From IMG/VR virus record IMGVR_UViG_3300032117_000125, positions 1-28,121 of that record: 28,121 bases of DNA; one strand, 5' to 3'. The notes under the pieces are model-generated. The model was given only the letters and a program-made list of their open reading frames with translations, searched no databases and was not told where the DNA came from. A program made the position numbers and the translations under genes. Of the stretch, positions 3,001-25,644 are shown piece after piece. Source of the DNA: a virus. Within the stretch, counting starts at the first letter, position 1. Each line of letters begins with the position of its first letter.

Positions 3001-6000
3001 ATTTTTCGGCTTGCGCTATAGTTTTTTCAAGTTCTTTTACGTATTTTTTGTAGCCTTCTTTAAACTTGCCTTTTTCACCAGCGGCTATTTCTTCATACTG
3101 TTTAATTTTTTCTTTAGTTTGCGCAATATCAAACAAAAGCTTGTACTCTAGTTGTGTACTAAATAAGTTACGTAACTTAGCGCTGCGGTCCATAGCAGCT
3201 TCTTTGTTTTTGGCAAAAGATTCTTCCAAACGAGTTGTTAAACGCTCAATTAACGGAGCTTTCTTTGCCTGTTCTGCTTCCATTCGTGCACGATCTTGTG
3301 CCGCGGTTGTGCCTTTATCTTTTATTTTTTCTAAAGCAGCTTGCGCCATCTTTATGCTGTGCTGCAACTTATTTCTTTGGATGCCAACAAACTTCATAAA
3401 GTTAGCTGGGGTAGCGCGCACTGTAGCAATAGGCTCTAACTCTTTAGCACCAAACAAACTGTATTGATCAGGGTTTACACCAGATGGAGCATAGCGCTCT
3501 TCATCAATTGCTTCTTGTCTAGCCTTTTCTTCTTCCGCTAGTTTTTCTTGCTCTTGAAGTTTTCTTACTTCATTACGTAGTGCTTTAACTTTTTCAAGAT
3601 TGGGGTTTTTCTTTTCCAGCTCTGACTTTAACATCTGAGCAGGATCACGTTCCATAGAACTAAAAAACTGCTTTTCACCTTTGACTAAAGGCTCTCCCTC
3701 AGCATATTTTTGTTTAATGCCGGCAAGTTGTTTTTCAATTTGGCTAACGCCTTCTGCAAGAGCGCCTTCTTTTCTAGATTTAGTGTACTGTGCGCTAAGT
3801 TTTTTAAGAGCTGCCGCCTCTTCTCCAGATGTTGCGCCTTTTAATTTAAGGCGTTGCTGCATGTAATCGGGACGTAGTAGTACGGATAAGTTTTGACTGC
3901 TAATAACTTTATCAAGTGAATCTTTTAAATCGTAGGCAAGTTTTAAAGACTCATCTACACTTAATGGTTTTTGTTTTAACGCGGCACGACGAGCGTTAAT
4001 ATCACGAATTGCTGCTTCAATATACTGCGCAACATGCCCTTTTGCCTTATCAATCAATCCCGATTTCATAGACTCGGCGGTAGAAGTATCTACTGCGCCT
4101 TCACCCAAATACCGGCCTGTTTTTACGTCTTCAACTGCATCACGCAAGTTATCAATAGCTTCTTGTTGGTCAAGTAATGCTTTATTTCTAGCATCTTCCG
4201 GACGCAGATTTAACTGTTCTTGTAAGTCGTCAAGGCGGTCATGGAGGGCCGCTTCGGACTTTTCGTCGCCGTTGGCTTTTGCTTCTTCAATGGCACGTTG
4301 AAGTCTTGCAACTCTTAAGTTAGTGGTAGGTTCTTCTTTACCTTGTGCGTTTACTGTGTCAACTAGTCTACCAACTAAATGCTCATCAGTGTTACCAAAA
4401 GTTTTTTCCAACTCAGCCTGTTTAGCTGCGTATGCTTTTTCTTCAGCCGTAGGTTCAAATGCTAGACCTTGCTGTACTGGTGCAGGTGGCTCCTCTAGTT
4501 TTTCACGCTCTGATTTGGCTTTTTCTAGCTTATCTAAAGCCGCTTCAAACTTATCTCTATCAAAAGTTTCGCCACTATATTTTTGTAAATCAGCATTATG
4601 CTTCTTGATTTGTTTATCAAGCGCATCCATTTTTTCTTTAACTGTTGGCTCAGGTTTTGGCAAAGCCTCAAGTTGTAAATCTGTGGCTTCTAGTGATTTA
4701 CGTAGTGTTTCTAAATTGCCTGCCAACGCCCTAGCTGTAGATGTGTCGCCAGTTTGTATAGCCTCTTGAAGTTTAGTTTGTACATCCTCAATTTGGCGCT
4801 CGACGTTTGGCTTAAATGTGTTTTCAAGCATAAAGCGATGACGTAGCATCTCTTCTCTATCTGCTTGCGCTTTATCTTCCGCAGCTTGTCTTTCACGAAC
4901 AGATAATGTACTAGGCGCATTAGGTAGCGGCTTAGCATTTACTGTCTCACCTAACTGCAGTTCGTTTGCTTGACGCAGTCTTTCTTGTTCGGCTTGCGCA
5001 GCTTGCTGTTGCTTTTCTTGTTCTGCTTGAGCAGCTTGTGCACGTTGTGTTTTTAGCGCAGCGAGGCGCCCTTCAATAGTTTGCGGTACTTCGCCTTCTT
5101 CAAGCGGTGGGGGCGTTACTCCCGGACGTTTATTGATTTCATCTAGTTGTTTTTGTAACGCATTAAGCTGCTCTCTACCGGCGTCTCTTTCTTCTTTAGG
5201 TAGCCCTTTGCCTTTAAGAACATCTCGCAAATCTTTCATTTGCTGAAGTATGGGTTCACGTTCTGCCTGTAGTTGCGCTTGACCTTCTGGGCTAGCGTAG
5301 TGCTCGGCCATTACACCGGCTTGTTGTTCTTGTGCTATTTGCTGTCTTTGAGTCTCACCTGTTTTAGCGACATTATCAATTAAAGCTTTAGCACGAGCCG
5401 GCTGACCAGCGTGCAATAATCCAAAGAACGGAGCAACCAAGCCCATCTGCTTAGCGCCTTCAACATACTGCTTTAATGCTTCTTCGCTAAATACATCTTG
5501 ACCTGCTGAGTATCTTTCGCCGGCTGTGCCGACTGTGGACATCAATGTACCTGCACCAGCAGCTTCGGCTGTGCCTTTTAATACGCTTGATAGTCTACCC
5601 GAGATTTGGGCTGCGGCGTCTTTAGCCGCAAGTTCTCCACTTAATACTTTAGGTGCTAATAGTTGTGCTTCTTGAGTTGCTGTCTTTAAAGCAAAGCCTT
5701 TCATAGCTCCGCCAACAATCTCACCACCTAAAGAATCAATTGCTGTTTGCGCTAATGCAGGAACCAGCGCTCTGCCATAATCGGGTTGTTGCCCAGCTTC
5801 TTTCTGAGCGGTAATGTCTTCACCAAAATGGATTGGGAAGTTAGCGGCAGCAAAGCCCGCTGTTCCGGCTAAAGCAGTTTCGGGAGCGAGAAAAGAAGCA
5901 GCAGCACCAGCTGCAGCAGGAGCGCCGTACCTACCAGCAAAGCTACCAACAGCTTGTCCGACAGGTTCAGTAATGTATTTGCTAAGTCCTGTACCCAAGA

Positions 6001-6325
6001 GTGACGTAATACCTTGGCGTCTAGCCACGTCCATATCTTGTGAAGTAGTTGGTTCATATGCTTGCGCACCTTCTTGTTTGATTTGTTTGCCGTAGCCGGC
6101 TACATCTTCACTACCTACTAAATTACCAAGACCTTCAAGCGCAGAACCAGCGCCTTCTCTAAAACCGGACTTAACTGCTGGAAGTAAACCTGTTTTCTTT
6201 TTATGCTCGGCGTAATCCTCAAACCCTTCAGGGAACTGTTCTTTAGCTAGCTTGAACGCTTGCTCATCAGAAAGTCCACTTGGAACTTCTACATACGACC
6301 CATTGGGTAGCGGTAAAAACGGCAT
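1..6325 (-). CDS. Giant polyvalent-type ejection protein, C-terminus beyond window
   Basis: An open frame of 2108 codons starts at ATG 6325 and runs without a stop off the left edge. The start is supported by AGGA seven bases upstream. Residues 1-30 form an N-terminal segment typical of phage internal proteins (MPFLPLPNGSYVEVPSGLSD). Residues about 105-165 are Gly/Ala-rich and hydrophobic. About 318-1325 is highly charged (Glu/Lys/Gln/Ala) and reads as long coiled coil. At 1469-1474 lies HESIGH, followed by REMIAHVTE (Glu1540), a possible divergent zinc metallopeptidase. From about 1620 the sequence resembles the large polyvalent protein associated domain LPD38, with NYIPYYR at 1827-1833 and a NPFYAYKQLVRDPMSAW segment nearer the end. 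Position after the lytic transglycosylase gene suggests a protein packed in the virion and ejected into the host. The polyvalent assignment comes from motif memory, not a search; the catalytic role is inference. Confidence 0.85.
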   Translation of the reverse strand, partial: MPFLPLPNGSYVEVPSGLSDEQAFKLAKEQFPEGFEDYAEHKKKTGLLPAVKSGFREGAGSALEGLGNLVGSEDVAGYGKQIKQEGAQAYEPTTSQDMDVARRQGITSLLGTGLSKYITEPVGQAVGSFAGRYGAPAAAGAAASFLAPETALAGTAGFAAANFPIHFGEDITAQKEAGQQPDYGRALVPALAQTAIDSLGGEIVGGAMKGFALKTATQEAQLLAPKVLSGELAAKDAAAQISGRLSSVLKGTAEAAGAGTLMSTVGTAGERYSAGQDVFSEEALKQYVEGAKQMGLVAPFFGLLHAGQPARAKALIDNVAKTGETQRQQIAQEQQAGVMAEHYASPEGQAQLQAEREPILQQMKDLRDVLKGKGLPKEERDAGREQLNALQKQLDEINKRPGVTPPPLEEGEVPQTIEGRLAALKTQRAQAAQAEQEKQQQAAQAEQERLRQANELQLGETVNAKPLPNAPSTLSVRERQAAEDKAQADREEMLRHRFMLENTFKPNVERQIEDVQTKLQEAIQTGDTSTARALAGNLETLRKSLEATDLQLEALPKPEPTVKEKMDALDKQIKKHNADLQKYSGETFDRDKFEAALDKLEKAKSEREKLEEPPAPVQQGLAFEPTAEEKAYAAKQAELEKTFGNTDEHLVGRLVDTVNAQGKEEPTTNLRVARLQRAIEEAKANGDEKSEAALHDRLDDLQEQLNLRPEDARNKALLDQQEAIDNLRDAVEDVKTGRYLGEGAVDTSTAESMKSGLIDKAKGHVAQYIEAAIRDINARRAALKQKPLSVDESLKLAYDLKDSLDKVISSQNLSVLLRPDYMQQRLKLKGATSGEEAAALKKLSAQYTKSRKEGALAEGVSQIEKQLAGIKQKYAEGEPLVKGEKQFFSSMERDPAQMLKSELEKKNPNLEKVKALRNEVRKLQEQEKLAEEEKARQEAIDEERYAPSGVNPDQYSLFGAKELEPIATVRATPANFMKFVGIQRNKLQHSIKMAQAALEKIKDKGTTAAQDRARMEAEQAKKAPLIERLTTRLEESFAKNKEAAMDRSAKLRNLFSTQLEYKLLFDIAQTKEKIKQYEEIAAGEKGKFKEGYKKYVKELEKTIAQAEKYLEDIRARDVEYFTIEGENNKRSVQMTRKVLKDALAENKITEEQAAPVSREIDRIEAANQAELQKRVTEKRIAEQAMLEKKAAEPTIRQEVVGTNVVLPGTKDEILQKRVVKKTAPLTAEEKRAKLREESAEGAREMQAIRKQLGLDKPNRKDVIADSKAYIKALEERIEANDKKRRIASPKTEARKKFEGIVDTLTKELENEKENLAEQQKLAKGERALAVAGNAPARKERLKPLKSGRANVTKDFEEALKSERDYEPEYGPRVGRDDNGNLVFRKGKDEQGTADVKGTKLIADAFREKLPEGVKFEYADTAEDLPAYVKAEVGANNLADMKGAVLKDGTIVAVGDKHVDLQDFQSTLAHESIGHYAVDRLLGKKGLVDLGRKIEAQNDGGIIRMAREMGVLDDVMKAIRDARRDNPNLTPENEMIVSLREMIAHVTEKPADTRMIHRSIRFIKELVGALRNWLRGIGLDKYMDVNDAEIYALIKRAKKEFEAGKLPTGEIGLEPAYRKAKFSDESDPLAQLAGKLVAQPKGIKESLKGNLAAFNTQFIDRLAPLKEIWRRMGETGPASQMMYNLLAHGQRTNISSETVVNGARTFFKDPITGEVTIRSSGGPGMKQVLQELLQSEKGNPQALNEMFTAYAAAKRAEVVGYKKLLADGEISANITPQMLEAAKKSGDADPAFVKAFETYQKYNNGLMDSLAESGYISKEKAAEFKNKNYIPYYRSRGGVVDLVIGSETPIRIGTLKDQPYLHELVGGDQKIQDFFKSSVQNTNMITEMALRNNATSSVARTLQDLGIAEIRKGEGEARPDVIRFKANGKDYHAVIDTSKNAEFSDIDPNLLVKGMEGIPTQLPGIVRLMGVPANWLRKGVTRNPFYAYKQLVRDPMSAWLTTGANFTPILSSLKEVNNAVRGAGETNKHLQESGILGGEVYTGRAEDLNQIVTRLQSGKASVSGAMAFMDKMASEADASTRSVLYDSFRKQGLTDMEAQIATMESMNFN

Positions 6326-6354: not shown

Positions 6355-8286
6355 CTATTGTTTAACTGACCCTATTACGTTTCCGGGGGTGTTTTGTAAT
6401 TGTACAGAAGATGATACAGGACTTCCACCCTGATCTTGATACCATTTATACAAAGCTGGGTTTTGTTTTAAAAGTTCGTCGAAGCGGTTTTTTCTATATT
6501 GGTTTTTTTGCAACTGAGTTGCGTATTTATCCGTGCTGTCGTTAAGTTCTTTTTCAATCTGTCCGTTAATGCCTTGCAGCTGCGACGAAAATTTAACGTC
6601 TTGTCCTTGCTGACCCAACATATTGTAGTGTTGTTGTAGTACTTTATTTCTATCCATAGCAGCTTGAGCAGATAACGCAGCCATTTGACCGGACTGGTCT
6701 TGTTTTTGAGCTTGTTCATAAGACTGTAATCCTTGTAAACCGCCAGCCCCAATATTAGATAAACCATATGGAGAACGCTGACCAGCAATGCCTAAACCAG
6801 CCGCCATCATAGCTAAGCCGGGGGCTTGCTTACGAGACTGTTCTAAACCAGCCAAATACTTAGTAATCATGTCTTGGCTAGCGTCTGGTTGAGTTGGGAA
6901 TGAAGATGTTAGTTCATCTCTAGTTGGGCCGGTAGGACTTTGGTCTTGTTGTGCTTGAGTGTATGATGCAGGTGCTTGCCCAGCTGGAGCTGGTTTTGCC
7001 GGGGTTGCTGGCGCCGATTGTTGCGCCAAAGCTAAAGCCTGAGGGTTTTGTTTTAGAATCTGATTTCCAACAGCTACATCGCCCATAAACGGATCACTGT
7101 AGTCATCAAAATACGAATTACCGGCCATAGTGTTCATGGTAGCTTTACCTAATGTTTTACCGCCCTCATAAACAGCTCCGGGCACTAGATAGCTACCAAT
7201 CAACTTATTAATTCCACTAACGGCTGGGGCACTTGGTATTGCCGATGTTGCTGCGGGTGCTGTTGCCGCGCTGCGAGCTGCTTGTTTTCTTAGATAGTCT
7301 GCGGCTTCTTTACTTAATGGTTTTTTACTTGCGGCTGCTGTATCGTCCATAGTAGCTGCTTCGGGACCAAACTCGCTTAACAAATCATTTAACCCGCCTC
7401 CAGTAAAACCAACGGCGCCACCTTGTGCAAGGCTAGCAACATACATACGAGTTTCTTTAGGCAACGCTTTTTCGTCAGCTCCTTTATGAAGCCACTTATC
7501 TACGTTACCCGTACCCCAGTTGTAAGCCATAGCAGCTAATTTAGGGTCTTGATATTTATTATGTAGTGCTCCAACCAACTCTCTTCCGACGCGGTTGTAT
7601 TCTTCTGGGCTTACATCTTTAGCGGGTTTAATACCAAAGCCCGGATTCTTAGCTGTAGAATCTAGCACCTGCATAGCGAACTTAGCGCCTTTGTTTGAAG
7701 TGAGCGGTCTACCTTTTTCATCGTAGTCACGACCGCCACTTTCCTTACGCATAATGTAGTCAAGCAAAGAAGCCTGTCCAGCTTTAGGTGTACCCACGCC
7801 TTTATCTTGCATACCAATCGAACTATATTGAGCTGCTGCTGGGTTAGCAACGGACATAATGCCAGCGCCCAAACCGCCTAAGTCGCCTTGACGGGCAATC
7901 AATGAATTAAACTCATCTTCTTCGCTACTATCATCATCTTCATCAGGATCAGTAAAGCCACCCATACCAAACGCAACAATACCGCCAGCAGCCATACCGG
8001 GTTCACCCATAGACTGCATATTCTCAGCAGGTAGTTGGTCTAGTCCAGCTTGAGGCTGTGGTAAATCTTTAGCCAACATTGTGTCACGCACTGTAGGTTG
8101 TTTAGCGCCCATCTGTGCTTGTTGACCCATCTTAGCTTGCTCTAGTTTGTCTCGCTGTTGTTTAGCAGACATGGCTACAGCCATAGGAAGAGAGTTATCG
8201 TGGCCTTGTAAAACAGCCAATAAGCGTGAATCAGGGAAGATGCGCGGATCAAGCGCCATCTTATACATTTGTTCCATGCCGAGCAT
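6355..8286 (-). CDS. Virion lytic transglycosylase (SLT domain) ejection protein
   Basis: A 643-residue protein with an SLT lytic transglycosylase domain at about 173-287. The family landmarks are visible: catalytic Glu182 in KESGG, the KFAMQVLDST segment (202-211), AYNWGTG (254-260) and ETRMYVASL (278-286). These enzymes cleave glycan strands of peptidoglycan, so the likely role is local cell-wall opening during DNA entry, comparable to T7 gp16. Before the domain is an acidic stretch (113-125) and a GGIVAFGMGG motif (101-110); after it comes a second, similar motif (289-298), then Ala/Pro/Gln-rich and coiled-coil sequence to the end. Its start overlaps the stop of the upstream gene as TAATG. 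No signal peptide or membrane helix is evident, which fits a protein packaged in the capsid. Function is confident; the ejection role is inferred from context. Confidence 0.87.
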   Translation of the reverse strand: MLGMEQMYKMALDPRIFPDSRLLAVLQGHDNSLPMAVAMSAKQQRDKLEQAKMGQQAQMGAKQPTVRDTMLAKDLPQPQAGLDQLPAENMQSMGEPGMAAGGIVAFGMGGFTDPDEDDDSSEEDEFNSLIARQGDLGGLGAGIMSVANPAAAQYSSIGMQDKGVGTPKAGQASLLDYIMRKESGGRDYDEKGRPLTSNKGAKFAMQVLDSTAKNPGFGIKPAKDVSPEEYNRVGRELVGALHNKYQDPKLAAMAYNWGTGNVDKWLHKGADEKALPKETRMYVASLAQGGAVGFTGGGLNDLLSEFGPEAATMDDTAAASKKPLSKEAADYLRKQAARSAATAPAATSAIPSAPAVSGINKLIGSYLVPGAVYEGGKTLGKATMNTMAGNSYFDDYSDPFMGDVAVGNQILKQNPQALALAQQSAPATPAKPAPAGQAPASYTQAQQDQSPTGPTRDELTSSFPTQPDASQDMITKYLAGLEQSRKQAPGLAMMAAGLGIAGQRSPYGLSNIGAGGLQGLQSYEQAQKQDQSGQMAALSAQAAMDRNKVLQQHYNMLGQQGQDVKFSSQLQGINGQIEKELNDSTDKYATQLQKNQYRKNRFDELLKQNPALYKWYQDQGGSPVSSSVQLQNTPGNVIGSVKQ

Positions 8287-16260: not shown

Positions 16261-17163
16261 TTATCCTTGAGTATCATTTACCATAACCCAGTTAGGGTTT
16301 TGTGCATTGCCAATATTAGTCCAAGTTATTGAATTTGTGTTGTTTACTGGGTTAAACGTAATAGTGCTGCCGTCATTAATCTGGAACCAGCCCGTAAATA
16401 CGTTTGAGTCTAGCCATACCACATTTTCATAAATACTTACATTATAGTTGGCTTGGACGCTATTGGCATCATTAAATATTACATTTTCCAAGACGTTGTA
16501 AAAATGGTTTGCCGTAGCGGTTTGGGTTGAGGCAAAAGAGGCTGGTTCACTAATAGTGTCATAGAAAACTGACTGGGTTGTGTTGGAATCGGCTAAATTA
16601 AGGTTTTCCGTAATAGAATCCAAGAAGGTAGACCGCGCGCTATTAGCATCGGCAAAAGTAAATCCTTCGCTAATTGCCTCTTGGAAAATACCTGCCTCAC
16701 TAATAATATCCCCAAATACAAAGTTTTCTGTAATAGAATCAAGTAACGCCGCTGTACTTGTTGGGGTATCGGCTAGATTAAAGTTTTCTGAACGGGATGC
16801 AGCAAATGCAGCCGCAATAGATGGGGTATCGGCTAAATTAAAGTTTTCGGCTATAGACTCGGCAAACTGAGCGGCAATAGATGCTGAATCAGCAAAACTA
16901 AAGTTTTCGGTTCTAGAAGTTGAGAATTGACCCGTAATTGTGGGTGTGTCGGCCAAGCTAAAGTTTTCTGATACTGACCCTAGGATTGCTGCTGTTATTG
17001 AGGCACTATCCGCATATTGGGCATCTTCGGTTACAGACTGGGCAAACTGGGCAGCTAGCGTTGCGGCGTCAGCAAAGTTCAAATTCTCCGTAGCAGCCAA
17101 TACATAAGCATTACCGCCAAGAGCAGCAAAAGGAGATTGAGCAAAGGCTGCGTATCCGAACAT
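16261..17163 (-). CDS. Tandem 20-residue repeat virion protein
   Basis: A 300-residue protein. After a short N-terminus (FGYAAFAQSPFAALGGNAYV) residues 25-244 are eleven tandem units of exactly 20 residues plus a partial twelfth (245 to about 264). The consensus is roughly (S/T)ENFNLADTxSxxAxFxxSI. The end (265-300) is different: ITFNPVNNTNSITWTNIGN, then NWVMVNDTQG. Such regular repeats suggest an elongated solenoid or shaft. It lies between the fibre cassettes and the collar fibre and starts with a TAATG overlap, so a fibre or tail role is likely. I recognise no named family. Confidence 0.8.
   Translation of the reverse strand: MFGYAAFAQSPFAALGGNAYVLAATENLNFADAATLAAQFAQSVTEDAQYADSASITAAILGSVSENFSLADTPTITGQFSTSRTENFSFADSASIAAQFAESIAENFNLADTPSIAAAFAASRSENFNLADTPTSTAALLDSITENFVFGDIISEAGIFQEAISEGFTFADANSARSTFLDSITENLNLADSNTTQSVFYDTISEPASFASTQTATANHFYNVLENVIFNDANSVQANYNVSIYENVVWLDSNVFTGWFQINDGSTITFNPVNNTNSITWTNIGNAQNPNWVMVNDTQG
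16372..17091 (-). repeat. 60-base tandem repeat array, 11 full units plus a partial one
   Basis: Eleven full in-frame units of 60 bases code for the 20-residue repeats, with a degenerate twelfth. Units are diverged at the DNA level but none shows an indel; Glu, Asn, Phe/Leu, Ala and Asp at fixed positions mark each unit. Confidence 0.85.
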
Positions 17164-17411
17164 TATCCGACTAAAGCCTTAATTTCATCTGCAGTTAAAC
17201 CAAGTGCAGTTAGTTTGGCTAATGCAGAAGCCTTTGCAGTTGCTTGTGCTGTTTCTTTTGCTGTTTCTGCTGCTTGTAATTCAGCTAATTTTGCTTGTGC
17301 TTGTGCCATATCATAAGACACTTCTTGTTCATTTACATCATAAGCAATATTGTTGCGAAATGAAATAACATCAGAGTTTAAAAAACAAATGGCTTCAAAA
17401 ATAGTAATCAT
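17163..17411 (-). CDS. Small fibre-partner protein, MITIFEA type
   Basis: An 82-residue protein. The start at 17411 is chosen because it overlaps the stop of the fibre gene as ATGA; a longer in-frame version starting at 17558 would run through the fibre gene. The N-terminal half ([20 protein letters not shown]) is beta-like and the C-terminal half (36-82) is Ala/Lys/Glu-rich helical, ending LTADEIKALVG. It follows fibre gene 17408-17845 as other small genes follow the other fibre genes here, so I infer an assembly chaperone or accessory subunit for that fibre. The following gene overlaps its stop as TAATG. Confidence 0.65.
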   Translation of the reverse strand: MITIFEAICFLNSDVISFRNNIAYDVNEQEVSYDMAQAQAKLAELQAAETAKETAQATAKASALAKLTALGLTADEIKALVG

Positions 17412-17845
17412 TGTGCTATTTCCATTAAAGTAATTGTATTTAAAACTGAATCTCCAAAAACATAATTTGTTCCAGCAGCAGCTCTTTGATATAAAGTATA
17501 TGTAGTAGATGAAGTTGTGGCTGGCGAATCTAAATAACAAATGTTTGAAGTTGACCAATTTGCTGCATTACATTCTATAAAACCGTTTGCTGGGCCAATA
17601 TTAGAACCACTACGATAAATTGTTATAAAACCAGCACTACTACTTTGATAAACAGCAAGTTGCACAATAATTAAAATTTTACTTGTTGAAAACAAAGGTG
17701 TAATTGAAGCAGAAAAACCTGTAGTTACAAATGAATTGCTAGTTGTAGATGAATAAGTTCCAGCATCATTATATGTAGCTTGAACTACTTGCACCACTTT
17801 TCCTGTGCCCGTTAGCATTCCCGGTTGTACGGTAGTTAAACTCAT
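17408..17845 (-). CDS. Receptor-binding/fibre domain protein
   Basis: A 145-residue beta-rich protein. Its pattern ([61 protein letters not shown]) matches a domain often found as the C-terminal tip of phage fibres, where it reads roughly kvLQvv, SASItP.s.SKIl, [12 protein letters not shown], itlmEi. Here it stands alone with almost no N-terminal shaft. The start overlaps the upstream partner gene as ATGA. It is probably a trimeric receptor-binding or decoration unit; how it attaches without an anchor is unclear. Confidence 0.65.
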
Positions 17846-18000
17846 TGCGCAGCCTCCGGTGTATTACCTTCTGCAAGCCAAGCTAGGTATTGTTGGTAAT
17901 CGGTGTTGTCTGGGTCGAATGGGATGCAAGCACCGTCTGATGTACGAATGATGCAATTTGATATTGGGTTAAGAATATCTGGTGTTATTAACTTATACAT
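17842..18000 (-). CDS. Small tail-fibre partner protein, MYKLI type (52 residues)
   Basis: The start is ATG 18000, immediately after the stop of fibre gene 18001-19095; the stop TGA overlaps the next start. The protein begins [10 protein letters not shown] and has the motif [20 protein letters not shown] followed by GNTPEA. This motif (iP.DP.N.DYq.YL.Wla.GNTPe) is frequent in small phage proteins encoded beside tail fibre genes and in tail fibre assembly proteins. A second copy of the same type lies at 20938-21108 behind a fibre of the same type. I infer a fibre assembly chaperone or capping subunit. Confidence 0.72.
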
Positions 18001-19095
18001 TTATAGCTCCGCAGAAAACGCTAAATAGGCAGTAACATCGCCATTACCCGTAAATCCAGTGTTTTGTCCTGTGGTCATAACGGCGCTTGAAGCATCAATC
18101 CCAAAATATCCATTAGACAAGCCCATTTGTGAGTTACCAAAAACTGAAAAACTAATTACATTTATACCACCATACACAATCCGATTATTTCCTCCAGCAG
18201 ACAAAGTAGGAAATGTTCGCATAGAAACTGGAAGTATTACAAAAACATAAGCTCTTGTTGCTGTACCAGCGTACCCATTTCCATATCCAGCATATCCACC
18301 ATTATTATCGTTTGCACTTAATTTTGAATAATAACGCTGACACAACGCTAACTCAGTACCATAGCTACGATACTCAAAGTTTGTTGCTGTAGTGCCGATT
18401 TCAAGCTGGACGCCGGTGATGTAGAAGGTTGCTCCGTTTGTGCCTACTACGGATGTTGCACCTGTTGCACCACGATAATCGCCTGATTGCCATGAGCCAG
18501 CAGTAGCTGAATAAGTTGAACCAACACCAAGACCTAAAAATACAGAAAGTCCTCTACCATTTGTTGTTAGCCAAGTTCCTGTTGTGCTTCCAGCAATAGT
18601 TACAGAAATAGAAGTCCAAGTATTAGCTACTGGAATAGAATATGTAAATGGATAAGACTGTGTTCTAGCATTGTTTTGTAACGCACCGCCAAAAGTTCCA
18701 GTTAATGAAGAATAAACTTGAAACGATAGGGTAACTGTTTTAGCATTAGCAGTTCCAAAGCCTAAATCAGCAACATTAAAACCTTCAATATATTGGGCAA
18801 TATTAAATAAATCACCGCTACCAACAGAATATGCAGAAGTGGATGTAACTCCAAGATAATTTGTAAATCCTACTGGCGGTGTTACTGGACCAGCGTTTTG
18901 TTGAATAGTTACTTTTGAGTTTTGAGTTGCATCGTAAAGCCAGCGGTCAAGAGTATAACTACCAGCGATAGAGCCTGAATATTGAGCACCAGCATTTCTT
19001 TGGTCAATAACCATCGCACCATTAATAATGCGATTTTTCCACGCAGTGCTAACTCCAGCAGAGCCTAACTGAGAAAGGATGTTTGATGTTGTCAT
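18001..19095 (-). CDS. Tail fibre/receptor-binding protein, RIINGAM type without anchor domain
   Basis: A 364-residue protein. It starts almost directly with KNRIINGAMVIDQRNAGA (20-37), continues with a carbohydrate-binding-like beta region (TLDRW, YIEGFNVADLGFGTANAK, SIPVANTWTSISVTIAGSTT), then GATFYITGVQLEIG and YRSYGTELALCQRYY, and a variable C-terminal tip (YSKLSANDNNGG onwards) ending AYLAFSAEL. This domain is common in phage fibre and virion proteins. The C-terminus is the likely receptor-binding part. Unlike its homologue at 21109-22452 it lacks the SGNGSTTAFT anchor region. It is followed by an MYKLI-type partner gene. Confidence 0.78.
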   Translation of the reverse strand: MTTSNILSQLGSAGVSTAWKNRIINGAMVIDQRNAGAQYSGSIAGSYTLDRWLYDATQNSKVTIQQNAGPVTPPVGFTNYLGVTSTSAYSVGSGDLFNIAQYIEGFNVADLGFGTANAKTVTLSFQVYSSLTGTFGGALQNNARTQSYPFTYSIPVANTWTSISVTIAGSTTGTWLTTNGRGLSVFLGLGVGSTYSATAGSWQSGDYRGATGATSVVGTNGATFYITGVQLEIGTTATNFEYRSYGTELALCQRYYSKLSANDNNGGYAGYGNGYAGTATRAYVFVILPVSMRTFPTLSAGGNNRIVYGGINVISFSVFGNSQMGLSNGYFGIDASSAVMTTGQNTGFTGNGDVTAYLAFSAEL

Positions 19096-19253
19096 TTAAG
19101 TTGGTCTTCCGTAGGTCTAGCAAGAGTTGGGTGTTCCCATTTAGCAATGTAATCGCCTTTGCCGTCTGAATCGTTTTGCAAAGTAATGACAGTCAAAAAG
19201 TCTTTATCTTCAAGGTTTGGGTAAATTGTTTTAATTTTTTCAAATAATGTCAT
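19092..19253 (-). CDS. Small fibre-partner protein, MTLFEK type (XkdW-like?)
   Basis: A 53-residue protein starting two bases after the stop codon of the C1q-type fibre gene and ending in a TGA that overlaps the next start. Sequence runs MTLFEKIKTIYPNLEDKDF, then VITLQNDSDGKGDYIAKWEH and PTLARPTEDQLK. The pattern of 'YP.L...DF' followed by 'LQND.DG.GdYI..W..P...PT.eqL' resembles the XkdW family of small phage proteins near tail genes; this is from memory and tentative. Residues about 20-47 are identical to the paralogue at 20283-20444 because of an 82-base perfect repeat. A fibre assembly or capping role is inferred. Confidence 0.7.
   Translation of the reverse strand: MTLFEKIKTIYPNLEDKDFLTVITLQNDSDGKGDYIAKWEHPTLARPTEDQLK
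19114..19195. repeat. 82-base perfect direct repeat, copy 1
   Basis: Identical base for base to 20305-20386 by eye. The copy covers most of the C-terminal half of the MTLFEK-type gene. The two genes diverge abruptly on both sides, so the identity looks like recent duplication or gene conversion rather than shared ancestry alone. Confidence 0.85.
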
Positions 19254-19254
19254 T

Positions 19255-20283
19255 TTATGCCGCCCTTACCAAAAAGCCTTGAAAGTTAGATTGTGTAGAA
19301 GTTCCTCTAAAAACGGGACTTGTTGCATTAAAATTTCCATAACATTCAACATAATCAGTTGTTCCATTGCAATATATTAAATACACACCTAAAGCTGAAC
19401 TAGAACTACCCCCTGATGTGATTTGTTGCACTTCATATTGAACACTTGACCCATTTTTATAAAATGCAATGCCTTGGACAACTGGATTTGTAGAAGCATC
19501 AACAGTTATTTGGGCATTAAACATATAATACCCAGCAACATTTGGAGTAAATCTATATGTTGATGTATTAAAGCAAGAAGCTGTATCAAATTGTTTGGTA
19601 TCAAATTGTGCTTTTGTCCATGTTGAACTTGTTACAGATTGGTTACTAGACATATAAGCACTAAACGCTGGCATATTACCGCTAACCATTACTGTGCCAG
19701 TAGCGCTGGGGAATGTGGCTGTATTGCTACCCGGTGTATTTAAAGTAGTAATTGTGCCAAGATATGAATTGGCTACAGAATTTGCCGTTGCAGGAATAGC
19801 ATTTAATACGCTAGACACATAGAAGCTTTCGGTGATAATTAAATCGCCAGCCGTTGCGCCCGTAGTCAAAACCACAGTAGTACCATTAGTCGCAGTATAG
19901 TCGGCAGAGCCTAGCAAAACACCATTACGATAGACTTGAATAAATCCCACTGTATAAGATGGCGGGGTAAATGTAGTCTGTCCTGCGGTTGCAGTAAATT
20001 CGGTCTGGGTGCGGTAGGCTGTGGTCGTTACGCCAGATGCTGGGATACCAAGATAGCGGGCTGAAATGTTGCCTGTACCAGTTGGAGGCGCAGCTGAGAA
20101 TGTTAGGGTCGTGCCTGAGACAGAGTAGGTTGATGGGTCTTGAACTACACCAGAGATTGCTACGAGAACTGAGGCCGTATTAGCTGGCGCTACAGAAGTA
20201 GTAAAGGCGGTTGTAGACCCGTTGCCACTAAATGTGTCTACAAGGAAGGCTACTTGAGAAGGCGATTGTCCGATATATGGCAT
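19255..20283 (-). CDS. Tail fibre with anchor domain and C1q-like tip
   Basis: A 342-residue protein. Residues 1-80 contain the fibre N-terminal module (MPYIGQSPSQ, then FSGNGSTTAFT, VQDPSTYSVSGTTLTFSAAP). Residues about 93-155 are a second, similar beta module (FTATAGQTTFTPPSYTVGF to AGDLIITESF). Residues about 196-342 form a C1q/TNF-like jelly roll beginning GTVMVSGNMPAFSAY and continuing FDTASCFNTSTYRFTPNVAG, YY, DYVECYGNF. C1q-like heads trimerise and are used by phages for receptor contact. Overlaps: start with the upstream partner gene as TAATG. Followed at once by an MTLFEK-type partner gene. Confidence 0.8.
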   Translation of the reverse strand: MPYIGQSPSQVAFLVDTFSGNGSTTAFTTSVAPANTASVLVAISGVVQDPSTYSVSGTTLTFSAAPPTGTGNISARYLGIPASGVTTTAYRTQTEFTATAGQTTFTPPSYTVGFIQVYRNGVLLGSADYTATNGTTVVLTTGATAGDLIITESFYVSSVLNAIPATANSVANSYLGTITTLNTPGSNTATFPSATGTVMVSGNMPAFSAYMSSNQSVTSSTWTKAQFDTKQFDTASCFNTSTYRFTPNVAGYYMFNAQITVDASTNPVVQGIAFYKNGSSVQYEVQQITSGGSSSSALGVYLIYCNGTTDYVECYGNFNATSPVFRGTSTQSNFQGFLVRAA

Positions 20284-20444
20284 TACGCTAATTGCTCCGC
20301 AGTTGGTCTAGCAAGAGTTGGGTGTTCCCATTTAGCAATGTAATCGCCTTTGCCGTCTGAATCGTTTTGCAAAGTAATGACAGTCATAAAATCTTGAATT
20401 GTGAGGCTAGGATATAAAGCCATGATTTTTTCGTATAAAGTCAT
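20283..20444 (-). CDS. Small fibre-partner protein, MTLYEK type (XkdW-like?)
   Basis: A 53-residue protein, MTLYEKIMALYPSLTIQDF to PTLARPTAEQLA. It overlaps the C1q-type gene upstream and the next C1q-type fibre downstream, each as TAATG. It is the paralogue of 19092-19253 and shares with it an 82-base perfect repeat; the N-terminal 17 residues differ at several positions, which may set partner specificity. Both copies of this type follow C1q-type proteins, while MYKLI-type partners follow RIINGAM-type fibres, which suggests a dedicated chaperone or accessory function. Confidence 0.7.
   Translation of the reverse strand: MTLYEKIMALYPSLTIQDFMTVITLQNDSDGKGDYIAKWEHPTLARPTAEQLA
20305..20386. repeat. 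82-base perfect direct repeat, copy 2
   Basis: Second copy of the sequence at 19114-19195. It lies within the MTLYEK-type partner gene, 1191 bases from the first copy, so recombination between copies would remove or duplicate exactly one fibre-plus-partner unit. Confidence 0.85.
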
Positions 20445-20938
20445 TATGCGCTCCTTACCATTGCTGCTTGGAAATAACTATTACTAATTCCACTTGAAAA
20501 AATTGGCAAGCTAGAAGCTACTTGCAATCCATATAACTCAACATAATCTGTTGTACCGTTCATGTAAATTAAAATAGTCATATTTGCAAGTGAAGCGGCA
20601 GGGGCACCAGCAGGATAAACTAAAGTTCCATATTTGAATAAAGAACTATTTTTATAAATTGCAATTTGAAATTGGCTATTTCCGCTTGAAGAATTAAAAT
20701 AAATATTTCCTGTTACCTGATAATAACCAGCTACAGTTGGTGTAAAACGATAATTTGTGGTGTTATCGTAACAAGAAGCAGTATCAAATTCTTTTGTATT
20801 TGCGGCAAGTTTTGTCCATGTATTACTAGAGATAGATTGGTTTGTTCCTAAATAAGCACTAAAAGCTGGCATATTGCCAGATACCATTACGGTTCCCGTA
20901 GACCCTGTAGAAGTTGCATCTATTACTGAGACTGACAT
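20444..20938 (-). CDS. C1q-like receptor-binding protein without anchor domain
   Basis: A 164-residue protein that is nearly all C1q/TNF-like jelly roll. GTVMVSGNMPAFSAYLGTNQ (15-34) leads into FDTASCYDNTTNYRFTPTVA, GYY, a Ser/Asn-rich loop, FQIAIYKNSSL and TDYVELYGLQV, ending YFQAAMVRSA. It matches the C-terminal half of the fibre at 19255-20283 from VMVSGNMPAFSAY onward, but has only about 14 residues before the domain. It may attach as a decoration or as an alternative tip. The start overlaps the MYKLI-type gene as TAATG; an MTLYEK-type partner follows. Confidence 0.78.
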   Translation of the reverse strand: MSVSVIDATSTGSTGTVMVSGNMPAFSAYLGTNQSISSNTWTKLAANTKEFDTASCYDNTTNYRFTPTVAGYYQVTGNIYFNSSSGNSQFQIAIYKNSSLFKYGTLVYPAGAPAASLANMTILIYMNGTTDYVELYGLQVASSLPIFSSGISNSYFQAAMVRSA

Positions 20939-21108
20939 TATGCTACTCCTTGTGTATCTGCTGGCTGGGCGACATTACCCTCAGATACCCATTTTAGGTA
21001 AGCTTGGTAATCTGTGTTGTCAGGGTCAAAAGGAATAAATGCGCCATCTGACAATCTTTGAACAGTATCTGACTTTTGTGTAATTTGATTTTTAATTAAC
21101 TTATACAT
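20938..21108 (-). CDS. Small tail-fibre partner protein, MYKLI type (56 residues)
   Basis: The ATG at 21108 directly follows the stop of fibre gene 21109-22452 with no gap; the stop overlaps the next start as TAATG. The protein begins MYKLIKNQITQ and carries [20 protein letters not shown] followed by VSEGN, the same motif as the protein at 17842-18000. Both copies follow fibres with the RIINGAM and LALCQRYY signatures. The motif is common in small proteins next to phage fibre genes; a chaperone or fibre-cap role is inferred. Confidence 0.72.
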   Translation of the reverse strand: MYKLIKNQITQKSDTVQRLSDGAFIPFDPDNTDYQAYLKWVSEGNVAQPADTQGVA

Positions 21109-22452
21109 TTATAGCTCCGCAGAAGCGTTAAAACTTCCAGTTGTTCCGCTAAATACATAAGTATCTCCAGAGCCAGCAGAATTAAACCCTAAAGATGGAC
21201 TATTTACTGTAGGGCCATTTGGGGCTAACGAATTGCTATTACTGTAAGTCCATGTGCCAGTAACAGTTATAGTTGGTATAGCCCTCATAGTTACAGGAAA
21301 ATTATAATTTAATGGGTATGTGTATCCAGTACTTGTTGCATAATTTCTTCCAAAAATTCCAAGACTTGATGATGCTGGGCTACCTAAATAGTAATAACGC
21401 TGACATAAAGCTAACTCTTGACCATACTGTCTATATTCAAATCCAGTAGCACTACTTCCTACTTCTAGTTGAACACCAGTAATGTAGAAGGTTGCTCCGT
21501 TTGTTCCTACTACTGATGTTGCGCCTGTGACTGATACATAAGTAGAACCAGACCAAGAACCAGCAGTTCCGCTTAATGTTGAGCCTGTACCCAAGCTGAA
21601 AAAAACACTAAATCCTTCGCCGTTTGTTGTTCCATAAGTTCCAGTTGTATCACCAGCAATAGTTATAAAAATTTGAGTCCATGTGTTTGCACTAGAAATT
21701 GTGTAACTAAATGGATAAGACCTAGTTCCATTTGGTGCATTTAAAGCACCTCCAAAAGTTCCAGTTAGGCTTGATTGAACCCAAAAAGAAACCGTTATAG
21801 TTTTAGCGTTAGCAGTCCCAAAGCCAAGGTCTGCTACGTTGTAGCCCTCAATAGGTTGTTGCAGACAAAACAATTCTCCGCTACCAACAGTATAGGAAGA
21901 TAAAGAAGTAACTTTAATGCTGTTATTAAATCCCGCTGGTGCTGTTGTAACTTGTTGAACGCTATATTTTGATGATTGGCTTAATCTGGCTTTCCATCTA
22001 TCTAATGTATATCCTTCTGCTGTAGGAGTAACACTAGCACCATTATTCCTTTGGTCAATAACCATCGCACCATTGATAATGCGGTTCTTCATAATAGAAG
22101 CATTACCAGCTCCTAATGTTGCATAAGTCATTGGTAGCGCTGTTACAGTGCCAAAAGAACTATTTTGAACTGTGCCTTGGCTTGGAGCAATAGTGTTAGT
22201 CTGTAAACTCGTGTATTCAACCCAAATGTTATTTGTGCCGCTTGGTGGAGCAGAAGTAAAAGTTAAAGTTGTACCAGATACAGTAAATGCACTTGATGGG
22301 TTTTGAACTACGTTAGCTACAGAGACAATAATCTGCGCTGCAGATACAACTGAAACCGGTAAAGTAAATGCCGTAGTTGAGCCGTTGCCTGAAAAATAAG
22401 CAACTTGTGGGGCGTACTGCTGGACGGAGAGCGAATTGCCGAGATATGCCAT
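21109..22452 (-). CDS. Tail fibre with anchor module and RIINGAM-type receptor-binding region
   Basis: A 447-residue protein. Residues 1-85 are the fibre N-terminal module (YFSGNGSTTAFTLPVSV, VQNPSSAFTVSGTTLTF, NNIWVEY). From about 121 comes MKNRIINGAMVIDQRNNGA, then a beta-rich region with TLDRW, QQPIEGYNVADLGFGTANAK and FSYTISSANTWTQIFITI, and the closing signature FYITGVQLEVGSSATGF plus YRQYGQELALCQRYY. After that the sequence is unlike its homologue at 18001-19095 and ends GSFNASAEL, so this C-terminal tip is probably the variable receptor-binding region. Followed without a gap by the MYKLI-type partner. Confidence 0.82.
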   Translation of the reverse strand: MAYLGNSLSVQQYAPQVAYFSGNGSTTAFTLPVSVVSAAQIIVSVANVVQNPSSAFTVSGTTLTFTSAPPSGTNNIWVEYTSLQTNTIAPSQGTVQNSSFGTVTALPMTYATLGAGNASIMKNRIINGAMVIDQRNNGASVTPTAEGYTLDRWKARLSQSSKYSVQQVTTAPAGFNNSIKVTSLSSYTVGSGELFCLQQPIEGYNVADLGFGTANAKTITVSFWVQSSLTGTFGGALNAPNGTRSYPFSYTISSANTWTQIFITIAGDTTGTYGTTNGEGFSVFFSLGTGSTLSGTAGSWSGSTYVSVTGATSVVGTNGATFYITGVQLEVGSSATGFEYRQYGQELALCQRYYYLGSPASSSLGIFGRNYATSTGYTYPLNYNFPVTMRAIPTITVTGTWTYSNSNSLAPNGPTVNSPSLGFNSAGSGDTYVFSGTTGSFNASAEL

Positions 22453-24283: not shown

Positions 24284-24724
24284 CTAACTAATTCTAATAA
24301 TGGCGGTTGTCGCCGTGGGGGTTGGGAATGTTACAGTAAAAGTTCCTGCCGATGTGTTCGTTTTATCCGAACCAAAATCCAAAACCGCTACCGCTGCACC
24401 AGTAGTACTATTATATATTAAGGCACACCTAGCAGTAAAGCTGGCTCCAGTCCAAACAACGGGGGCAAATGAAATATAGGAAGTGTTTGAATCGGTGTTA
24501 CCTACGGGTACTTGAGTGATTGTTAGGGGTTTTCCCCCTGCCGTATAACCAGCGCCTGTAACTTCATTAGCCGTTGTGTAAGCGGTTGTAGCGTTGTTTA
24601 ATACTGCGTTACCGGTATAGAGGGCGATATTGTAGGTGTATGGGGTTCCAACAGCAAAATTTTCCAACCCGCTGAGCAGGTTGGTTTTAAATGTAGTTGT
24701 TTGGCCTTGAACAATGTTGGACAT
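24284..24724 (-). CDS. Conserved beta-rich phage virion protein
   Basis: A 146-residue protein with strands such as YTYNIALYTG, YTTANEVTGAGYTAGGKPL, YISFAPVVW and AVAVLDFGSDKTNTSAG and a short IIRIS end. The 'IALYT... YTTxNEVTGxGYTAGG' pattern is common in phage proteins from the connector-to-fibre interval. No catalytic motif is visible. It starts in the stop codon of the adaptor gene (TAATG overlap), which supports co-assembly with the connector or tail base. Confidence 0.6.
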   Translation of the reverse strand: MSNIVQGQTTTFKTNLLSGLENFAVGTPYTYNIALYTGNAVLNNATTAYTTANEVTGAGYTAGGKPLTITQVPVGNTDSNTSYISFAPVVWTGASFTARCALIYNSTTGAAVAVLDFGSDKTNTSAGTFTVTFPTPTATTAIIRIS

Positions 24725-25644
24725 TATGAACCTCTACCACCAACATTAATTTTAAGCTGCCCATCTCTGTAGAAGTCGCCACGCTCCATACCATCTGCAA
24801 GGCGTTTGAGCTGGGATAAAGACTCTTGGTACTTGTCTTCATAATACTTAACCAAATCGGCTTCACCCTTCATAAACAGCATGGCTTCACGCATAGCCCC
24901 ATAGAATAAAACTGGATCGTAGTTATTGCCAAGCCAGCTTTGGCCAGTAGCATTTGATATGACGCTTACTGTAACAGAAAAGCCGCTGCCAGTATTACCA
25001 AGGGAAGAACAAGAAAGAATATCGCCCACGACATAAAAGTTGCCGCCAAAAGTAATGCTACAGGATGTGACGACACCTCCAACAATAACAATATCTGCTG
25101 TAGCATTAGCACCCGAACCTCCAGTTAAAGGAACATTTTGATATATACCGTTGGTGTATAAAGAACCGCCAACTAGAGAATTAACTGTAACAATTTGACC
25201 CTGAACAATCGTTGGTGGGTAATAGAAATAGTGCATCTCTACTGTGTAGTTTTGGTCTGGGGTAGGTGCTAGAAGATAAGTCATATCCTCTAAATTAGAA
25301 ATCTGGCTACCAAACAAAGCGTAGTATTTTGGTAAACCCGTAGCAGTAGCTGTTGGGTATGCTTCGCGCAGAAAGTTAACATCTTTACTTAAAAGGTAGT
25401 TATAGCTACCAGAAGAATCAATAACCGCAATAGAATAATTAGCCAGCCAGTCAGTAGGTAAAGCTACATAAGGGTTAGATGCTGTAAGAGTACCTGTGAC
25501 ATTTTTACGTAATGAAGGTAGGTTAACGCTGTTGTATATACGGTCTTCAGCCTGCTGAATAAAAACAGGGATACTAGCTACGAATAGCTGCTCTGTATTC
25601 TCGGCGTAAGCTTGTATGTTGTTATACAGCGTTTCGTAATTCAT
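24724..25644 (-). CDS. Head-tail adaptor protein with inserted beta domain
   Basis: A 306-residue protein. Residues 1-146 and 237-306 match the helical phage adaptor (connector) family: ETLYNNIQAYAENTEQLF, FIQQAEDRIYNSVNLPSLR, ALPTDWLANYSIAV, PKYYALFGSQ, then GNNYDPVLFYGAMREAMLF and VKYYEDKYQESLSQLKRLAD. Such proteins bind the portal ring and form the upper tail. Between Tyr-Tyr-Pro-Pro (141-144) and Trp237 there is a beta-rich stretch of about 87 residues (YTNGIYQNVPLTGGSGANAT, GGVVTSCSITFGGNFYVVGD) that is usual in fibre proteins but not in adaptors. TAATG overlaps bound it on both sides. Confidence 0.78.
   Translation of the reverse strand: MNYETLYNNIQAYAENTEQLFVASIPVFIQQAEDRIYNSVNLPSLRKNVTGTLTASNPYVALPTDWLANYSIAVIDSSGSYNYLLSKDVNFLREAYPTATATGLPKYYALFGSQISNLEDMTYLLAPTPDQNYTVEMHYFYYPPTIVQGQIVTVNSLVGGSLYTNGIYQNVPLTGGSGANATADIVIVGGVVTSCSITFGGNFYVVGDILSCSSLGNTGSGFSVTVSVISNATGQSWLGNNYDPVLFYGAMREAMLFMKGEADLVKYYEDKYQESLSQLKRLADGMERGDFYRDGQLKINVGGRGS

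Follow-up and report, generated by a model that had tools for sequence, protein, structure and literature searches.

The window, by which we mean the whole stretch of viral DNA that was analysed (28,121 nucleotides, IMG/VR record IMGVR_UViG_3300032117_000125), contains an array of five units, each made up of a fibre or fibre tip and a small partner gene, and this array probably constitutes a set of interchangeable host-recognition units in which every tip is accompanied by a small chaperone or cap that is specific to the structural class of the tip. Three class pairs are observed: RIINGAM tips (with a predicted CBM4-like domain) go with partners of the MYKLI type, C1q tips with XkdW partners, and tips of the 17408 type (F5) with partners of the MITIFEA type (P5). 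The original prediction of a modular array with dedicated partners thus largely holds, on the grounds of class pairing, dependence on the tip and turnover of units.

An ORF check of the window recovered all ten ORFs of the five predicted cassettes on the minus strand, with every coordinate right. Unit 1 comprises an anchored fibre (21109-22452), in which a T7-tail-like/phrog_18673 N-terminus is followed by a RIINGAM domain and a variable tip ending in SAEL, and an abutting (21109/21108) 56-aa partner of the MYKLI type (20938-21108) that is in frame with the fibre with one TAA between. Unit 2 consists of an orphan C1q-type tip of 164 aa without an anchor (20444-20938, ending MVRSA), which overlaps the preceding partner by 1 bp at 20938, and a 53-aa XkdW (PF09636) partner of the MTL[YF]EK type (20283-20444), which has 1-bp overlaps with its own tip at 20444 and with the next fibre at 20283. 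That next fibre, in unit 3, is an anchored C1q fibre of 342 aa (19255-20283, ending VRAA); a 1-nt gap (19255/19253) separates it from a second 53-aa XkdW partner of the MTL[YF]EK type (19092-19253), which in turn overlaps unit 4 by 4 bp (19092-19095). Unit 4 contains an orphan RIINGAM fibre tip of 364 aa (18001-19095, ending SAEL) and, abutting it (18001/18000) and in frame after one TAA, a 52-aa MYKLI-type partner (17842-18000). A 4-bp overlap (17842-17845) leads into unit 5, where the orphan tip F5 (17408-17845, phrog_6942-like, ending MEIAQ) overlaps by 4 bp (17408-17411) the 82-aa MITIFEA-type partner P5 (17163-17411), which itself shares 1 bp with the next gene at 17163. The 82 aa of P5 refer to its ATG reading; in the mechanical list of ORFs it starts further upstream, with a TTG, and is read from 17558. 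The N-terminal anchor is found only in the fibres at 21109-22452 and 19255-20283, the other three being orphan tips, and the small genes touch or nearly touch both neighbours, as had been claimed.

The typing of fibres and partners was likewise upheld. The XkdW-type partners exceed the gathering cut-off of PF09636 (29.8 bits for 20283-20444 and 28.5 bits for 19092-19253, cut-off 24.6) and match PDB entry 2hg7 (E=4.8e-4). The C1q domain PF00386, whose fold is related to that of TNF, was recovered in residues 206-339 of 19255-20283 (30.9 bits, gathering score 23.7); the orphan 20444-20938 does not reach the Pfam C1q model and is C1q-typed solely by a profile built for this analysis from both C1q-type proteins of the window and their relatives. 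The PHROG matches are phrog_4492 (tail fibre) for the two RIINGAM fibres and phrog_20370 for the two MYKLI proteins; no Pfam match was found for the MYKLI and MITIFEA types, and an RNA family search gave no matches. Profile comparison detected no kinship among the three partner families. The predicted RIINGAM domain (residues 2-213) resembles CBM4-2 (Z 14.6, rmsd 2.7, 161 aligned) and TSP4 of phage CBA120 (Z 13.2) and is therefore predicted to be a CBM4-like jelly roll, a statement about the fold that does not imply sugar binding. The MYKLI structure model has a pLDDT of 84.5, and the partners appear as small, stable predicted domains; a likeness of this model to chemokines in the fold search concerns a generic sheet-plus-helix arrangement (Z ≤3.6) and was left uninterpreted.

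We then surveyed about 300 related viral loci, which yielded 379 non-identical pairs. The MYKLI type follows a RIINGAM tip in 169 of these, the XkdW type a C1q tip in 142 and the MITIFEA type a 17408-type tip in 68, without any cross-pairing among the three classes. The pairing first noted for the window, MYKLI with RIINGAM and MTL[YF]EK with C1q, is therefore the same in its relatives, and a random distribution of partners with respect to the upstream fibre domain, which the original prediction had named as the finding that would speak against it, was looked for in these pairs and not found. Read from the tip, 167 of 173 RIINGAM tips are followed by MYKLI, 137 of 157 C1q tips by XkdW and 68 of 86 F5 tips by P5; the 20 C1q and 18 F5 tips without the expected partner adjoining (many of the latter with another small gene) indicate that the partner is not always needed in cis, and 5 of 73 P5 genes lie behind other tips, which are unclassified. 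The mutual information between the partner and the upstream tip amounts to 1.444 bits for 304 representatives at 60% identity, far beyond chance (shuffle maximum 0.05), as compared to 0.263 bits in the downstream-neighbour control, the gene after the partner being much less constrained. Moreover, a single cluster of N-terminal segments carries 15 RIINGAM, 108 C1q and 16 F5 fibres, each with a partner of its own class, which shows that the partner follows the C-terminal tip and not the N-terminal segment.

The rule extends to named phages that were not used in model building and that include cyanophages, pelagiphages and phages of Bacillus and Paenibacillus. Among these, MYKLI follows a RIINGAM tip in 13 of 13 cases, XkdW follows C1q in 9 phages (including Bacillus PBP180 and Paenibacillus Unity) and a P5-like gene follows F5 in 4. 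One rearranged exception was encountered; in HTVC115P the XkdW gene is placed after a RIINGAM plus MYKLI unit. The partners of the XkdW type and of F5 have a common C-terminal family in HTVC106P (phrog_9114). A scan of genome contigs for XkdW-type relatives returned none. The pairing rule is not peculiar to the phage group of the window and spans Gram-negative and Gram-positive hosts. In contrast, none of 64 ORFs that end in the S74 intramolecular chaperone has any of the three partner types, and in one genomic slot, on the same type of anchor, an S74 tip occurs without a partner and a RIINGAM tip with one.

The ends of the fibre genes carry a second kind of information. For the MYKLI partner, a Shine-Dalgarno-like GGAG lies in the fibre codons GCG-GAG-CTA-TAA (21109-21120, minus strand), a layout repeated at 18001-18012, and for the XkdW partner a likewise Shine-Dalgarno-like AAGGAG lies in the C1q codons GTA-AGG-AGC-GCA-TAA (20444-20458, minus strand). 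Ribosome-binding sites occur within the last fibre codons in 78-96% of cases versus 2-7% in the control, and codon usage is biased there (GCG 90% versus 10%, AGG 90% versus 13%, GAG 77% versus 8%). This bias reveals a role in ribosome binding and weakens a reading of the C-terminal signatures as protein recognition tags only. A constraint at the protein level nevertheless remains, because the terminal E and L are near-invariant even where the spacing has changed or GAA is used.

Since the genes abut or overlap and the partner's ribosome-binding site is part of the fibre codons, tip and partner might simply be co-inherited through overlap and a common translation signal without functional specificity. 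We consider this quite improbable: the distances of tips and partners within classes barely correlate (rho -0.14, 0.19 and 0.20) despite odd/even column controls of 0.49-0.85, according to which both carry signal, and this argues against simple co-inheritance, as do the persistence of the pairing across very distant phages and the absence of these partners from S74 tips. The partners were originally described as dedicated, which stands for the tip class but not for the individual fibre, since tips and partners of one class co-diverge little or not at all; this could alternatively mean that the role of the partner is unrelated to the tip surface. The gain, loss and swap of whole units, which had been anticipated, is seen in one genomic slot of related contigs, where one to five units are present and tip plus partner are swapped; no recent population-level swaps are visible in the phage of the window itself, whose closest relatives match it with 100% identity throughout the array. 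A lack of purifying selection, the other finding named as contrary, was not observed either, the median dN/dS of the partners being below 1 throughout (0.21 for the XkdW type, 0.49 for the MYKLI type and 0.55 for the MITIFEA type).

Longer relatives of the small partners connect them to PF16778 (Phage_tail_APC), a known tail-assembly-chaperone domain, to which a MYKLI domain is fused in L059 (E=2.2e-16) and a P5-like domain in RN05-S (E=1.3e-16). These fusions, the purifying selection and the class-specific pairing make it very hard to regard the small genes as spacers with a translational or regulatory role, or as accessory proteins that have nothing to do with the fibres, for instance in lysis or anti-defence, as their very short length, the absence of a recognised catalytic motif and the lack of an assigned function in the databases might suggest. 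The window partners themselves did not qualify as members of the tail fibre assembly/chaperone profiles (PF16778, Tfa-type PHROGs), the XkdW-type partners matching phrog_8746 (tail fibre assembly) weakly (E=0.0055 and 0.068). By position they do resemble the fibre assembly/chaperone type, being directly downstream of a fibre and cognate to its C-terminal tip.

Fibre/Tfa pairs are known from Mu (S/U), P2 (H/G) and lambda (stf/tfa). Like the window they have a small gene right after the fibre that is cognate to the C-terminal region and moves with the fibre (E. coli phage examples in PMC11990801), but the window differs in having three mutually unrelated partner families of 50-80 aa in one operon, five consecutive units, several of them with orphan tips, and partners without a Tfa-model match. 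The gp24/gp25 pair of Pam3 combines a TNF-like tip domain with a downstream chaperone, in a 3:3 complex in which the 55-residue N-domain of the chaperone binds the fibre (PMC9608196); gp25 has an extra helical trimerisation domain, and the window partners are only about the size of the N-domain, a likeness that concerns their size. Chaperone 'caps' cognate to a fibre and common to unrelated phages have been described for Alteromonas V22/A5 (PMC10579305, PMC7289586), where one fibre and one chaperone type are present rather than a multi-class array. The MTL[YF]EK partners belong to the same family as XkdW of PBSX (PF09636, PDB 2hg7), and the XkdW homologue of the PBSX-like PBP180 is also found behind a C1q-like protein, although the window copies, at 53 aa, do not have the C-terminal extension of the 110-aa PBSX protein. 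Marine phage metaviromic islands place C1q, fibre and XkdW genes in hypervariable host-recognition islands (PMC3909814), for which the accessible parts of that account give frequencies, label XkdW 'unknown' and state no fibre-partner pairing rule. What is new with respect to the known fibre/chaperone pairs is the arraying of pairs, the three unrelated partner families and the tip-to-partner rule.

The same genetic data would fit a partner that is a permanent part of the virion, as a tip cap or second adhesin on the fibre that may itself touch the receptor, and so would the small stable predicted domains, the description of Mu Tfa as remaining on the fibre (PMC10579305) and the changed plaque type of XkdW-like mutants of phages Sam46 and Sam112 (PMC8190038). 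We nonetheless regard this as unlikely, because the partners of the C1q class are more conserved than the tips (median distance 0.27 versus 0.56), unlike a receptor-facing protein, and because Pam3 gp25 was not found in virions (PMC9608196). Most likely, the tiny partners are tip-specific assembly helpers, i.e. minimal fibre chaperones or caps, a reading for which the Pam3 3:3 complex and the Sam46 and Sam112 mutants also speak.

We infer that the partners bind and chaperone or cap the tips, and that the orphan tips become attached. The partner would be translated right after the fibre, from the ribosome-binding site buried in its last codons, would bind a class-conserved part close to the fibre C-terminus and would help three chains to fold and trimerise, or shield the tip. 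As it would recognise a tip by its class rather than by the variable surface that meets the receptor, a resident partner could work with any new tip of its own class; a tip of another class would arrive with its own partner, and S74-ended fibres would need none. The in-frame arrangement of fibre and MYKLI partner across one TAA allowed a read-through fusion to be modelled, in which the fibre domain folded well, the partner block came out less well (pLDDT about 63-74) and no usable interface was obtained. More tentatively, and with slightly less than even confidence, a general tip-to-partner code can be envisaged, in which every tip fold is served by a separate small chaperone domain, unrelated to those of the other folds, that reads a class signature (e.g. 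the near-invariant C-terminal EL or VR[AS]A) instead of the receptor surface, so that new tips plug in freely; XkdW would then be the C1q-tip chaperone in phages of Gram-negative and Gram-positive hosts, the MYKLI proteins a new family of chaperones for CBM4-like tips, and several tips of one class within an array could share a single partner.

These findings propose a testable role for the XkdW and MYKLI-type proteins, both without an assigned function in the databases used, and provide a practical guide to the helper gene with which a given tip should be expressed when phage receptor-binding proteins are produced in the laboratory. If the partners are tip-specific assembly helpers, this would be the first role for several 'unknown' phage proteins, and it would offer an account of how aquatic phages exchange host-recognition tips while their fibres stay assemblable.

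The ten genes that the original prediction had placed in the array (17163-22452) were all found on the minus strand at the coordinates given there and are tightly packed as claimed, neighbouring genes overlapping by 1-4 bp or lying 0-1 nt apart. In order of transcription the units comprise: i) an anchored RIINGAM fibre (21109-22452) with a MYKLI partner; ii) an orphan C1q tip (20444-20938) with an XkdW partner; iii) an anchored C1q fibre (19255-20283) with an XkdW partner; iv) an orphan RIINGAM tip (18001-19095) with a MYKLI partner; and v) an orphan tip of the 17408 type (F5) with a MITIFEA partner (P5). An 'orphan' tip protein starts a few to ~40 residues before the tip domain and is without an anchor like that of 21109-22452 or 19255-20283. 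Pfam and PHROGs identified both MTL[YF]EK proteins as XkdW and 19255-20283 as C1q; both RIINGAM proteins matched tail-fibre families, and 21109-22452 matched a T7-type fibre N-terminus just under the cut-off. The RIINGAM domain, behind which comes a variable tip, is predicted to fold as a CBM4-like jelly roll (Z 14.6). The two XkdW genes have 3' halves (19111-19187 and 20302-20378) that are identical in DNA over ~80 bp, unlike their 5' halves and the preceding C1q domains; this block has 97-98% identity in the related sequences L172 and L244 and is a possible site of recombination or gene conversion. Orphan tips of relatives, including those of the 20444-20938 and 18001-19095 kinds, carry short N-terminal segments (SGDTSG, IIDGTxG, ALTQV and YGTVN types), some common to different tip classes, that are possible docking peptides.

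Elsewhere in the window, a virion-type protein with an SLT transglycosylase domain (6355-8286) and an SU10-type adaptor (24724-25644) indicate a tailed-phage tail/structural region. The array is directly followed by a 300-aa protein (16261-17163) with ~20-aa repeats (60-bp period in the DNA), which keeps its position in relatives and belongs to no family, and a 2108-aa ORF (2-6325), without Pfam or PHROG matches, runs off the left end.

Central to the original prediction was that the partner type follows the fibre type. IMG/VR was scanned four times, twice seeded with partners and twice with fibres, so that the data were not selected from one side alone, and iteratively built profiles of all three partner families and all three tip classes (RIINGAM, C1q and F5) were run on every ORF of 314 sequences. 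Counting the ORF immediately upstream of each partner, with identical pairs removed, we found MYKLI after RIINGAM in 169 pairs, XkdW after C1q in 142 and P5 after F5 in 68, and no cross-pairs among the three classes in this set, as the claim demanded. The upstream ORF was unclassified in 16 pairs (10 MYKLI, 1 XkdW, 5 P5): all ten before MYKLI have the RIINGAM signature end (EL or EI), several being visibly truncated; the single XkdW (L098) is parted from its C1q gene by an inserted 182-aa ORF (4984-5532, exactly between the two) that, judged by eye, looks like a GIY-YIG homing endonuclease; and the five P5 genes are preceded by other tips. For six XkdW genes no ORF lay upstream within the search range; read individually, three have a C1q gene ~100 nt upstream, and the other three lie at contig ends. 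Among 304 representatives at 60% identity (165/80/59), the mutual information was 1.444 bits (shuffle maximum 0.05), against only 0.263 bits for the gene downstream of the partner. Conversely, the next gene was MYKLI for 167 of 173 RIINGAM tips, XkdW for 137 of 157 C1q tips and P5 for 68 of 86 F5 tips, most of the remaining F5 tips having another small gene.

The partner type goes with the C-terminal tip and not with the N-terminal segment: when fibres were clustered on the segment preceding the tip domain, the largest cluster contained 15 RIINGAM, 108 C1q and 16 F5 fibres, each with the partner of its own class. Within a class there was little co-divergence of tip and partner (rho -0.14 for RIINGAM, 0.19 for C1q and 0.20 for F5), although odd/even column controls (0.49-0.85) showed that both distances carry signal. 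Beside near-identical XkdW proteins (distance ≤ 0.10) the C1q domains differed at ≥ 40% of positions in 198 of 201 pairs, partly because XkdW evolves more slowly. The fibre ends are class-specific: E-L in practically all RIINGAM tips, mostly [VI]R[AS]A-like in C1q tips and MEIA-like in F5 tips. Judging from codon usage, these last codons double as the ribosome-binding site of the partner: compared with gene bodies, Ala is GCG in 90% versus 10%, Arg AGG in 90% versus 13%, and Glu GAG in 79% versus 31% (RIINGAM) and 77% versus 8% (F5). Shine-Dalgarno-like tetramers precede 84, 96 and 78% of partner starts (2-7% at control ATGs), nearly always inside fibre codons. Since E and L are near-invariant despite changes in spacing, the ends are constrained as protein too. 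At 21109 and 18001 the RIINGAM fibre and MYKLI gene share one frame with a single TAA between them, a layout found exactly in 48 of the 169 RIINGAM-MYKLI pairs; read-through of the stop would hypothetically fuse the two.

The pairing extends to named phages that were not used for building the profiles. The RIINGAM domain precedes MYKLI in 13 of 13 cases: Methylophilales phage MEP401, ct2os315, ctXG6705, Pseudomonas phage Kaagvere, HTVC115P, the cyanophages S-2L, P-TIM68, S-B43, RN05-S (twice), B23 and S-SRM01, and S45-C4. C1q-type domains are followed by XkdW in MEP401, ct2os315, HTVC106P, HTVC019P, HTVC203P, HTVC131P, HTVC010P, Bacillus PBP180 and Paenibacillus Unity (XkdW as annotated by the depositors); our C1q-type profile matched PBP180 (E=9.7e-13) and Unity (E=2.2e-15), where the Pfam C1q model was only sub-threshold. 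F5 tips are followed by P5-like partners, the latter matching weakly (3e-3 to 4e-6), in HTVC106P, RN05-S, HTVC010P and P-SSP7. The exception is HTVC115P, in which an anchored C1q gene and an XkdW gene are separated by a RIINGAM-MYKLI unit, as if a complete unit had been inserted there. In P-SSP7 (L332:1047-3114) three tandem F5-type tips precede just one P5-like gene, a hint that several tips of the same class may be served by a single partner. The C1q-type gene before XkdW in HTVC010P (L329:2669-3492) is apparently split over two reading frames.

The gain, loss and swapping of units that had been proposed was borne out by relatives with the same flanking genes. The slot with five units in the window holds a single RIINGAM-MYKLI unit in L043-L046; L172 has the window's order, but its first anchor bears a glycine-rich tip with a different 114-aa partner (phrog_7759); in L241 the same anchor type carries a confirmed S74 intramolecular-chaperone tip, and the small gene is absent; and in L250 and L274 further kinds of tip are accompanied by different small genes. 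A glycine-rich tip followed by a 'QPYPSW' protein of 93-114 aa (L172:3829-4170, L274:8192-8470, L250:6723-7001; phrog_7759 for those tested) is a fourth tip/partner class. None of the 64 distinct S74-type ends in the whole set was followed by any of the four partner families, and MEP401, P-TIM68, S45-C4 and HTVC106P have S74 fibres without such a partner alongside paired units. There is precedent in related fibres for a separate tail fibre assembly protein (Tfa) and an intramolecular chaperone as alternatives (PMC11990801).

Profile comparison detected no relationship among the three partner families. Purifying selection on the small genes, also expected from the original prediction, was present in all three and strongest for XkdW, as estimated roughly from pairwise values for diverged, recombining sequences. 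Elsewhere the MYKLI domain (L059, E=2.2e-16) and the P5-like domain (RN05-S, E=1.3e-16) are N-terminal in longer proteins with a C-terminal Phage_tail_APC domain (PF16778), and in one pelagiphage the XkdW-type and F5 partners have a common C-terminal family (phrog_9114). These architectures suggest chaperones built from an N-domain that is specific for the tip and a C-domain that can be exchanged and that the window's partners lack. The Pam3 protein gp25 holds the fibre tip with its N-domain of ~55 residues, while its helical part trimerises (PMC9608196); in the Bacillus phages Sam46 and Sam112, plaque-type mutations map to an XkdW-like gene, which according to the authors may act in tail assembly or in adsorption (PMC8190038). 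The fibre/partner pairing is confirmed, and the modular-array reading is supported and extends to other phages; the partners most probably act as chaperones or caps, each specific for a class of fibre tip.
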